DNA from: Bacteroidales bacterium
Lineage (GTDB): Bacteria > Bacteroidota > Bacteroidia > Bacteroidales > UBA12170
Reading direction: 5' to 3'
Length of the DNA: 46,185 nt
Assembly (NCBI GenBank): GCA_029938465.1
Contig: JAOZUW010000002.1
Location: forward strand, 10,403-56,587
Each line of letters opens with the position of its first letter. Position 1 is the stretch's first letter. The position numbers and the translations under genes were made by a program. This document shows, piece by piece, positions 8,721 through 13,235 of the stretch. The notes under the pieces are model-generated. The model was not told where the DNA came from, did no database searches, and worked only from the letters and a program-made list of their open reading frames with translations.

Positions 8721-8926
8721 TTTGGTATATGTGAAAATACTTTTGCTTGATATAAGAAATAAATTAAACAAAAGATTGCTTAAATCATCACAAAAAGACA
8801 CCAGCTGCAAGGGTTTTAAATACTTATTCAATTGTAATTTTTCGGTCATATTTGGCCTTTTGTTAGCTAATATTCTCGTATCTTCGCCATATGTTTGATA
8901 TAATAAGTATACAATCCTGTGGTAAA

Positions 8927-10303
8927 ATGAAAATAAAAAAACAATCATTCGCATTTATTTTTAGTCTTCTTCTTCTTCTTCCTTCTTTGCAAGCGCAGCT
9001 CCCCATCGAAAGTAAAAAAGCAAAACAAGAACGTATGGAATGGTGGACCCAAGATCGCTTTGGGATGTTTATTCATTGGGGTATTTATTCAGTGGCAGCA
9101 CGCCATGAATGGGTAAAAAAGTATGAACGATTAAACAATGAAGAATATCAAAAATATTTCGAGATATTTAATCCCGATCTGTATCAACCTCAAGAATGGG
9201 CAAAAATTGCCAAAAATGCAGGAATGAAATATGCAGTGATTACTACTAAGCATCACGATGGTTTTTGTTTGTTTGATAGTAAATATACCGATTATAATGC
9301 TACCAATACACCCATTGGTCGTGATTTAATACAGGAGTTTGTAGAGGCTTTTCGAGCTGAAGGCTTAAAAATAGGTTTTTATTATTCCTTACTCGATTGG
9401 CATCACTCCGATTATACCATAGATCGTAATCATCCTCAAAGTGCGAGTAGCATCGAAGAATATGAGCAGTTGAACAAGGGGAAAGACATGGATGTTTATA
9501 GAAAATATATTAAAGATCAAGTGAGAGAAATCTTGTCTAATTATGGAAAGATAGATATCATATGGTTAGATTATTCTTTCCCCGGTGGTAAACACGGTAA
9601 AGGGAGAAATGATTGGGACTCAGAAAACCTTTTAGCTATGGTACGTAAATTACAACCCGAAATCATTGTGAACGATCGTCTTGATTTATTGGATATTGAA
9701 GGAGGTTGGGATTTTACAACACCTGAACAATATAAAGTTTCAAAATGGCCTGAAAAAAATGGAATTAAAGTGCCCTGGGAAACCTGTCAGACCTTTTCAG
9801 GTTCATGGGGTTACTACCGTGATGAAAAAACCTGGAAAGATAATAAACAACTTTTGGTTTTATTGATAGAATCAGTGAGTAAAGGAGGTAATCTTTTACT
9901 TAATGTAGGGCCAACAGCTCGTGGATATATTGATTATCGTGCTCAGGATCGTTTGGCAGATATGGGTGAATGGATGAAGTTTAATTCCCAATCTATCTAT
10001 GGATGTACTCAAGCCCCTAATGATTACAAAACTCCTGACAACACTTTGCTCACCTATAATGAGGAAACAAACCGTCTTTATGTGCATCTTCTCGATTATC
10101 CTATGAAATGGTTAAGTTTAAAAGGCTTTGCAGGAAAAGTAAAATATGCACAATTTTTGCACGATGGTTCAGAGATAAAATTTGGAAAACCCAGACATAA
10201 TGTAACCCATCAAGAGAAATTGGGGGAAGAAGAAATAATATTGATACTCCCTATGGTAAAGCCGAATATGGAAATACCTGTGATTGAATTAATACTAGAA
10301 TAA
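8927..10303 (+). CDS. Alpha-L-fucosidase, GH29
   Basis: Signal peptide MKIKKQSFAFIFSLLLLLPSLQAQ; WWTQDRFGMFIHWGIYS, TTKHHDGFCLFDSKYTDYN, DIIWLDYSFPGG, KGGNLLLNVGPTARG: GH29 signatures. Confidence 0.93.
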   Translation: MKIKKQSFAFIFSLLLLLPSLQAQLPIESKKAKQERMEWWTQDRFGMFIHWGIYSVAARHEWVKKYERLNNEEYQKYFEIFNPDLYQPQEWAKIAKNAGMKYAVITTKHHDGFCLFDSKYTDYNATNTPIGRDLIQEFVEAFRAEGLKIGFYYSLLDWHHSDYTIDRNHPQSASSIEEYEQLNKGKDMDVYRKYIKDQVREILSNYGKIDIIWLDYSFPGGKHGKGRNDWDSENLLAMVRKLQPEIIVNDRLDLLDIEGGWDFTTPEQYKVSKWPEKNGIKVPWETCQTFSGSWGYYRDEKTWKDNKQLLVLLIESVSKGGNLLLNVGPTARGYIDYRAQDRLADMGEWMKFNSQSIYGCTQAPNDYKTPDNTLLTYNEETNRLYVHLLDYPMKWLSLKGFAGKVKYAQFLHDGSEIKFGKPRHNVTHQEKLGEEEIILILPMVKPNMEIPVIELILE

Positions 10304-10315
10304 ACACAAAATATA

Positions 10316-11131
10316 ATGAGAATAACAGATCAAAACCCTCTATTAAAAAAATTAATTGAGAATGTTGCCGAAGTGGCAGGATATCTTTGGGAAAGAGGCT
10401 GGGCAGAACGAAATGCTGGAAATATTTCTGTGAATATAAGTGCTCTGATTTCTGGAGAAACAATAGGCATTAATAGTCATCCTTTTGTTGAGATGACCAC
10501 TCCATATCCTGAACTTGCTTCTATGTTATTTTTAGTTACAGGAACAGGAAAAAGAATGCGTGATTTGGCACGTAAACCATTAGATAATGCTTTGCTTATT
10601 CAGTTAAATAAAAAAGGAAGTGGTTATTATGTTCTTTCTCGTGAAAAAAGTTCAGATGATATTTTTATGCCTACTTCCGAATTCCCTACACATTTGGGTA
10701 TTCATCAAATGGTAAAACGAAGAGGTTCAAAAGAAACGGTGGTACTACATACTCATGCCACTGAATTAGTAGCGCTTACACAAATTCAAGAGTATTGCAA
10801 TCAAGAAAAATTAAATAAGTTGTTATGGGGAATGCACCCCGAAACTATGGTTTTTTTACCTCAAGGGATTGGTTTTGTACCCTATGTAACTCCCGGAACT
10901 GATGATATTGCCACCGAATCGCTTAAAGTATTAAAGAAGCATCCTATTGTATTATGGGAAAAGCATGGTGTATTTTGTATTGGGGACTCTATTATTGATA
11001 CTTTTGATAATATTGATATTATGACAAAATCGGCAAAAATTTTCTTCCTCACCAGAAGCGCAGGTTATTCCCCTGAGGGTCTGAGTGATAAAGAGCTAGA
11101 AACACTAAAAGTAATAGCTTCAAATTTTTAA
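10316..11131 (+). CDS. Class II aldolase, rhamnulose-1-phosphate aldolase (RhaD)-like; in this context probably acts on L-fuculose-1-phosphate
   Basis: GWAERNAGNISVN, TGTGKRMRD, HLGIHQMVKRRGSKETVVLHTHATELVALT, VLWEKHGVFCIG. Confidence 0.85.
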   Translation: MRITDQNPLLKKLIENVAEVAGYLWERGWAERNAGNISVNISALISGETIGINSHPFVEMTTPYPELASMLFLVTGTGKRMRDLARKPLDNALLIQLNKKGSGYYVLSREKSSDDIFMPTSEFPTHLGIHQMVKRRGSKETVVLHTHATELVALTQIQEYCNQEKLNKLLWGMHPETMVFLPQGIGFVPYVTPGTDDIATESLKVLKKHPIVLWEKHGVFCIGDSIIDTFDNIDIMTKSAKIFFLTRSAGYSPEGLSDKELETLKVIASNF

Positions 11132-11133
11132 TC

Positions 11134-11255
11134 ATGCAAAATAAAGAAGTTGGAGTATTCAAAAAAGCTTTTTTACCCTTTATTGTTGTTATCAGTTTAT
11201 GAGCTTTGTAGTGATTGCTATTTATGGTTTTTGTACTGTTAAAATTCATGTCTAA
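11134..11255 (+). pseudogene. Remnant of an MFS L-fucose permease (FucP-like): N-terminus and probable C-terminus only
   Basis: ATG at 11134: MQNKEVGVFKKAFLPFIVVISL* (FucP-like N-terminus), overlapped by SFVVIAIYGFCTVKIHV* (11199-11255, resembles a last TM helix) in another frame; sits between aldolase and mutarotase. Confidence 0.55.
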
Positions 11256-11273: not shown

Positions 11274-11705
11274 ATGCTAAAAGGAATATCACCTATTATA
11301 AGCCCCAAATTATTAGAGACACTTGCCAGAATGGGACATGGAGATGAGATTGTTTTAGCCGATGCTCATTATCCGGCTGAGAAATACAATCATAATGTAT
11401 TACGTGCAGATGGTTTAAAAATAGCAGATTTATTGACCGCCATTTTGCCGCTTTTTGAGTTAGATGCCTATGTGGAGCAACCATTAATAATGATGGCTGC
11501 AGTAAAAGGAGACCAACTAGATACTAAGGTTGAGGAATCCTATTTAAAGAGTATTCATAAAACAAACCCTACTATAGTCTTCCTCAAACGAATAGATCGC
11601 TTTGCTTTTTATGAGCGTTCGAAAGAGGCTTTTGCTATTGTAATGACTGGAGAAACTGCTAAATATGGAAATATTATTTTAAAAAAAGGCGTAACACCTA
11701 TTTAG
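11274..11705 (+). CDS. fucU: L-fucose mutarotase
   Basis: [35 protein letters not shown]...[29 protein letters not shown]: RbsD/FucU family. Confidence 0.93.
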
Positions 11706-11796
11706 TAACTATTTCGGAACGTAGTGAAGCGGTGAAAAAGTGAAATACAATATTCCAAATTATATGCTACTATTTAGTTAGAGATGAAAGAATAAA

Positions 11797-11868
11797 ATGA
11801 AAACATATCCAAAAATTGGAATTTATCCAATCATAGATGGTATACAAGGAGAAGAAAAAAATAAATGA
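11797..11868 (+). pseudogene. Remnant of L-fucose isomerase (FucI): N-terminal ~18 codons plus a short tail
   Basis: ATGAAAACATATCCAAAAATTGGAATTTATCCAATCATAGATGGTATACAAGGA encodes MKTYPKIGIYPIIDGIQG, close to the FucI N-terminus as remembered (K.PKIGIRP.IDGR..G); stop at 11866-11868 overlaps the fucK ATG as ATGA. Confidence 0.65.
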
Positions 11869-13235
11869 AGCAAAAGATAATCATTGTTTTAGATTGCGGA
11901 GCAACTAATGTACGTTCAGTTGCAGTGGATGATAAAGGTGTTATTCTAGCTGAAAAATCTTATTTCAATAAAACTCAAGCTGATCCTTTTTACAAAGAGG
12001 GTATAATTTGGAATGTGGATGAAATTTGGCAAAAATTAGCTAAGGCTACAAAGCAAGTAGTAGGTGAGGTAAATAAAGAAGCTATTATGGGTATTACTAT
12101 TACTACTTTTGGTGTAGATGGTGCTCCTTTTAATAAAAGCGGTAAACAAATATATCCTGTTATCAGTTGGGCTTGCCAACGTACCAACGATATTTTGGAT
12201 GACTTTTATGATCAAATTTCATTGGAAAAATTATATAAGACTTCTGGAGTTAATCATTTCCATTTTAACACTATTTATAAACTGTACTGGTTATTAAAAA
12301 ACAAGCCGGAAGTGATGGTAGAAATGGATCAATGGTTATTTATGCCCTCCATTATAGCCAGAAAAATATGCAACACATTATACACCGATGTTTCTATGAT
12401 GGGTACATCTATGTTGGGTGATCTTAAAACCAGACAATTCTCAAATGAAATTCTCTCTACACTAAAATTATCGGTTAATCATTTTCCTCCACTAAAAGAA
12501 GCAGGAGAGCAGGTAGGTATTGTTAGTGCCAAAGCAAGTAAAATACTGGGATTAAATGAAGGATTACCTCTTTTTTCCGCTGGTCATGATACCCAATTTG
12601 CTTTATTTGGATCGGGAGCTAAAGAGAATGAAGTTGTTTTAAGTTCAGGAACCTGGGAGATCTTGATGATGCGTACTGAGAAAGTAAATATAAAGAATAG
12701 TTTTGTGGAGAAAGGCGTAACTATAGAGCTAGATGCAAAATTACCATTATTTAATCCTGGAATACAGTGGCTGGGCTCTGGTATATTGGAGCAGATCAAG
12801 CGGCAATTATTTACAGATATTCAAGATAGAGATGATATTTATGATATTATGATTGCTGAAGCTGAAGCGGTTAAGGAGTGTAAATTACAAATTGACCTAG
12901 ATTTTCTAAATCATAAAAGTTTTATTCAAGAGCTTCATTTGCAATCAAGCAGAGGTGAAATATATCTGGCAACATTAAATGCTTTAGCTGAAAAAACAAA
13001 AGCTAGTCTAAAAATTTTGGAAGATTTAAGTGGTGTAAAAGTAAAATCTCTTTTGGTCGTTGGTGGAGGTTCAAAAAACAAACTTTGGAATAAAATAAGA
13101 GCCAAAAAACTTGGAATAGAAGTAAAAACCAATGCCCAGACAGAAACTACCGTTTTGGGGGCGGCTATGTTTGCTTTTGGAGCCAGTAAGGTATATGATT
13201 CCGTTGAACAAGCGAGAGAATACTTTCTCAAGTAG
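11865..13235 (+). CDS. fucK: FGGY-family L-fuculokinase
   Basis: MKQKIIIVLDCGATNVRSVAVD..., SAGHDTQFALFGSG, LSSGTWEILMMRTE, VKSLLVVGGGSKNKLWN: FGGY kinase next to fucU. Confidence 0.88.
   Translation: MKQKIIIVLDCGATNVRSVAVDDKGVILAEKSYFNKTQADPFYKEGIIWNVDEIWQKLAKATKQVVGEVNKEAIMGITITTFGVDGAPFNKSGKQIYPVISWACQRTNDILDDFYDQISLEKLYKTSGVNHFHFNTIYKLYWLLKNKPEVMVEMDQWLFMPSIIARKICNTLYTDVSMMGTSMLGDLKTRQFSNEILSTLKLSVNHFPPLKEAGEQVGIVSAKASKILGLNEGLPLFSAGHDTQFALFGSGAKENEVVLSSGTWEILMMRTEKVNIKNSFVEKGVTIELDAKLPLFNPGIQWLGSGILEQIKRQLFTDIQDRDDIYDIMIAEAEAVKECKLQIDLDFLNHKSFIQELHLQSSRGEIYLATLNALAEKTKASLKILEDLSGVKVKSLLVVGGGSKNKLWNKIRAKKLGIEVKTNAQTETTVLGAAMFAFGASKVYDSVEQAREYFLK

Follow-up and report, generated by a model that had tools for sequence, protein, structure and literature searches.

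A fucose operon in this Bacteroidales genome has very likely been eroded by separate internal deletions, and the 23-codon open reading frame directly in front of its fucK gene is, on this reading, the decaying 5' end of fucI. The evidence includes a whole homologous operon in another genome of the same order, a significant FucI remnant, and both ends of FucP preserved out of frame. The closest FucK found (57% identical) lies in that other genome, G154, at a locus designated L051, which serves as the reference below. The window, meaning the whole 46,185-nucleotide stretch of DNA analysed, carries the following features of the operon.

8891 to 10303, plus strand: GH29 alpha-L-fucosidase, intact (PF01120, E=2.9e-94; 82% identical to the first GH29 of L051)
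10316 to 11131, plus strand: RhaD-family aldolase (rhamnulose/fuculose-1-phosphate aldolase), intact (NF002963; catalytic residues conserved)
11134 to 11202, plus strand: fucP remnant, N-terminal end, MQNKEVGVFKKAFLPFIVVISL and a stop, placed by alignment to L051 FucP and with a fitting operon position
11196 to 11255, plus strand: fucP remnant, C-terminal end, FMSFVVIAIYGFCTVKIHV and a stop, placed by alignment to L051 FucP
11274 to 11705, plus strand: fucU, L-fucose mutarotase, intact (NF011949; 77% identical to L051)
11706 to 11796, plus strand: AT-rich spacer, at the slot where L051 has a cytidylyltransferase/GHMP-kinase-like gene
11797 to 11868, plus strand: fucI remnant, its opening 18 codons homologous to the start of FucI and followed by five unrelated codons and a stop
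11865 to 13235, plus strand: fucK, L-fuculokinase, frame intact (TIGR02628; 57% identical to L051)

The L051 operon (minus strand) comprises a NUDIX-type regulator, which we take to be such by eye from its sequence, followed by GH29, a RhaD-family aldolase, FucP, FucU, the cytidylyltransferase/GHMP-kinase-like gene, FucI, FucK, and a second GH29. GH29, RhaD, FucU, and FucK stand in the same order and relative strand as in the window, and FucP and FucI are whole in L051 where the window holds remnants at the matching slots. The L051 operon shows what is missing from the window. Besides having FucP and FucI as remnants, the window has no NUDIX-type regulator upstream, no cytidylyltransferase-like gene, and no second GH29. 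The fucPIKUR and fucAO genes of E. coli K-12, all annotated as intact, have the FucP, FucI, FucK, and FucU functions in common with the operon, whereas they follow another order and include a FucA-type rather than a RhaD-type aldolase. Among roughly 700 genomes from the order and class, no relative of the operon closer than that of G154 was found; an AT-rich stretch of about 36 bases in G002:C109 that matched at the DNA level (E=9.6e-4) was put down to chance.

The product of the 23-codon frame (window 11797-11868, ATG to TGA) is MKTYPKIGIYPIIDGIQGEEKNK. Its first 18 residues align without gaps to residues 1-18 of the intact L051 FucI, with 12 of 18 identical and a BLOSUM62 score of 63; shuffling the 23-mer 5,000 times never gave a score that high (top shuffle 47). 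The last five residues have no counterpart in FucI. The initial annotation had described this frame as the start of fucI with the rest of the gene missing and with its stop overlapping the fucK start, and the comparison upholds that description: about 567 of 585 residues are gone, and the TGA ending at 11868 shares an ATGA with the fucK ATG at 11865. A Pfam search with the 23-mer gave no match, its length being very short for a profile search. The slot directly 5' of fucK is common to the stub and to the fucI genes of L051 and E. coli.

Within the FucI family (TIGR01089/NF008220; PF07881, PF07882, PF02952; structures 1FUI, 3A9R, 4C20, 6K1F), to which the first 18 codons of the stub are homologous, the start follows the consensus P-K-I/V-G-I-R-P-x-I-D-G-R, and both arginines are invariant in 26 of 26 gathered FucI proteins. 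The stub retains a homologous PKIGIRPxIDGR N-terminus, though with Tyr and Ile in place of the two arginines. It has none of the N1, N2, and C domain architecture that extends over about 585 residues, and the region bearing the metal-binding residues Glu337, Asp361, and His528 (PMC6894278, with E. coli FucI also compared) is deleted. Arg16 and Trp88 are among the substrate-recognition residues described in the same structural paper (PMC6894278); this arginine is probably E. coli Arg18, at the DGR position that is Ile in the stub, a tentative placement from the 72-residue spacing, as the numbering in that paper appears mixed. With two invariant residues changed, the stub is not kept for FucI function, and judged by its sequence it is what remains of fucI, a decayed pseudogene.

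Upstream, between the aldolase and fucU, the two ends of fucP abut out of frame at 11134-11255, and about 390 codons are gone. The C-terminal piece aligns to residues 414-432 of L051 FucP with a score of 75, reached by none of 3,000 shuffles, and the corresponding DNA alignment with L051 runs on into fucU at 71% identity. The N-terminal piece aligns to residues 6-25 with a score of 37, which is weak alone (13 of 3,000 shuffles reach it), and carries an Ile where other aligned FucP-type transporters have Thr. Of an MFS protein of about 430 residues that would score above the TIGR00885 cut-off, two ends are present. The initial annotation had named fucU and fucK correctly, both lying above the cut-offs of their NCBIfam equivalog models (NF011949, TIGR02628), but its map of the locus was incomplete: the fucP ends, the RhaD-family membership of the aldolase, the possible loss of a third operon gene, and the faster evolution of FucK had been overlooked.

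The ancestral operon would have run roughly GH29-aldolase-fucP-fucU-(cytidylyltransferase-like)-fucI-fucK. One deletion would have taken out the interior of fucP, sparing its two ends, and another would have cut fucI to 18 codons and fused its start to sequence just 5' of fucK. The third gene, which the nearest relative carries between fucU and fucI, would have been lost too, unless it was never present. We infer that the deletions most likely occurred via short shared sequences, and the order of events and the ancestral bases at the junctions are reconstructed in the same way: at the fucP junction, the codons expected for ISLF and PFMSF would share TTTAT, and at the fucI junction GGAG ends the homology.

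At the slot of the third gene, the spacer shares the 12-base GATGAAAGAATA with the bases just 5' of the start of the L051 cytidylyltransferase-like gene, a match with E about 1 that is backed by position only. Loss of this gene from the window is possible and is put no higher, because other fuc operons lack or relocate it (L102). Genes combining cytidylyltransferase and GHMP-kinase-like parts occur in fuc operons from two of the families in this order (L051:11841-13010, minus strand; L102:8216-9358, plus strand). The spacer region between fucU and the stub also holds a 9-base direct repeat, CTATTTAGT, at 11698-11706 and 11770-11778, bounding 63 bases that have no match in L051 and may stem from a small duplication or insertion.

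The rest of the genome, a 3.07 Mb draft assembly of 260 contigs that is 94% complete, was searched for FucI N1, FucI C, and RhaA. Neither PF07881 (FucI N1) nor PF02952 (FucI C) found a match, and RhaA, considered as a substitute isomerase, was likewise absent from the assembly; the absence of another fucI or rhaA, on which the initial annotation had made the block in the pathway depend, is thus borne out in this 94% complete assembly. Nothing in the assembly exceeded the FucP cut-off. Three FucP-family matches fell under it and look to be of the NagP/GluP type by score and neighbours: the best of them, C126, was rejected as a FucP substitute, its best match being NagP and its setting resembling a hexosamine/aminosugar-type cluster, and a second paralogue, GluP-like and adjoining a GH92-like gene, was also rejected as a replacement. 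Of the 17 other genomes in the order that carry a clear FucK, 16 also have FucI, which makes the lack of FucI here unusual. The exception, G121 (98% complete), has a FucK without any FucI (L095, G121:C7, 8309-9766, minus strand), next to a putative GntR-type regulator gene.

Without FucP and FucI, the usual enzymes would give free L-fucose no entry to the FucK route. The organism is probably unable to use free L-fucose by way of FucP, FucI, and FucK. Counting against erosion, a second fucI could be missing from a 260-contig draft of 94% completeness.

The genes that survive also count against a simple loss. All four frames (GH29, aldolase, fucU, and fucK) are open, with no frameshifts and no stops. 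FucU scores 205.7 bits against NF011949 (cut-off 141), placing it with the L-fucose mutarotases, and FucK, with both FGGY_N and FGGY_C Pfam domains, scores 529.7 bits against TIGR02628 (cut-off 470.9), placing it with the L-fuculokinases. The aldolase, 55% identical to that of L051, scores 258.9 bits against the RhaD equivalog NF002963 (cut-off 170) and 182 against TIGR02624, under the cut-off of 401, and retains the zinc and catalytic residues of E. coli RhaD (N29, E117, H141, H143, E171, H212). By these matches it belongs to the RhaD family, its substrate in the host being putatively rhamnulose- or fuculose-1-phosphate. The fuc-operon aldolases of the window (10316-11131), L051, and L092 are all of the RhaD family and not of the FucA family, despite the company of FucP and FucI. 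Intact frames and an intact aldolase active site are more than a dead operon should long keep, so the loss is either quite recent or has left behind enzymes that are still of some use.

Rates of change differ among these genes. In relative-rate tests against the L051 FucK (L034), the window FucK carried 52-76 unique replacements and the reference 24-36 (chi-square 5.3-27) with 11 more distant outgroups, which are mutually related and do not give independent tests. A further comparison, with L035 as outgroup (112 vs 16), was set aside, since L034 and L035 may be sisters. The window FucK has thus replaced residues at about twice the rate of its nearest relative. FucU showed no excess (11 vs 13 and 8 vs 6, with low power), nor did GH29 (19 vs 18, with distant outgroups), and faster evolution of the aldolase is unsupported at 20 vs 16, with E. 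coli RhaD as a very distant outgroup. FucK departs from 5 of 87 positions that are invariant in other FucK proteins, and two other long-branch FucK proteins depart at 4 and 6. In each of the four genes, third codon positions still carry an excess of the substitutions, over a span that includes the time before the loss. FucK is thus relaxed or shifting rather than neutral across its entire history.

These results bear on a second reading, in which the operon was trimmed and still works: fucP and fucI became dispensable, and the aldolase, FucU, and FucK persisted to process some other ketose, or fuculose supplied by a different isomerase, for example an AraA-like or xylose-isomerase-like one. 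This is compatible with erosion, the difference lying in the role given to the surviving genes. FucK-branch kinases accept several ketoses (PMC3245297). The four intact frames and the conserved aldolase residues speak for continued work, as do the unaccelerated FucU and GH29, a FucK that keeps 82 of the 87 invariant positions even though it evolves faster, and G121, which also has FucK without FucI. Set against this, no dedicated isomerase or transporter was found beside the operon, FucK is altered at five residues invariant elsewhere, and a large share of the divergence may have built up before the loss. We regard a trimmed, working operon as possible, though doubtful. A more specific version, in which the importer and isomerase are gone, the kinase-aldolase-mutarotase set is re-used on a different ketose or on fuculose of other origin, and the specificity of FucK has changed, would fit the faster evolution, intact frame, and five lost invariant residues of FucK, and it is improbable.

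The overlap of the stub with fucK could also be taken as a sign of function, the stub being a putative selected leader peptide that couples fucK translation to the upstream genes. An ATGA overlap and a GGAG 13 bases 5' of the fucK ATG are what such a leader might show, but the fucI deletion would itself create the overlap, making selection unnecessary, and neither among the genus mates nor among the order and class genomes was a relative with the same stub found for a conservation comparison; this role is quite unlikely. A promoter scan returned sites no more frequently than in shuffles. That the assembler collapsed or bridged full-length fucI and fucP genes, as a draft of 260 contigs might suggest, is the least likely reading of all and very improbable, since it needs two independent gaps inside genes less than 700 bases apart, no FucI domain was found elsewhere in the genome, and at invariant positions the remnants carry residues seen in none of the intact homologues, changes that a collapsed functional gene should not carry.

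The operon sits in the right genome, since a ribonucleotide reductase gene on the same contig is 77-81% identical to those of genus mates. FucI and a close FucK are both absent from 10 of 10 genus-mate genomes, and those whose contigs reach far enough have other genes beside the ribonucleotide reductase gene. The operon therefore appears confined to the window lineage within the genus as sampled, through transfer into it or loss elsewhere.

As an eroded operon, the locus represents a known kind of event, a bacterial pathway decaying piecemeal, ordinary in kind and neatly preserved. It provides a snapshot of a catabolic operon that would have lost its entry steps, uptake and isomerisation, with the enzymes on either side intact, and it cautions that fucK, fucU, and a fucosidase alone are insufficient for calling fucose use. 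Should selection still act on the genes that remain, the locus would offer a natural test of whether FucK and the RhaD-type aldolase can take another ketose.
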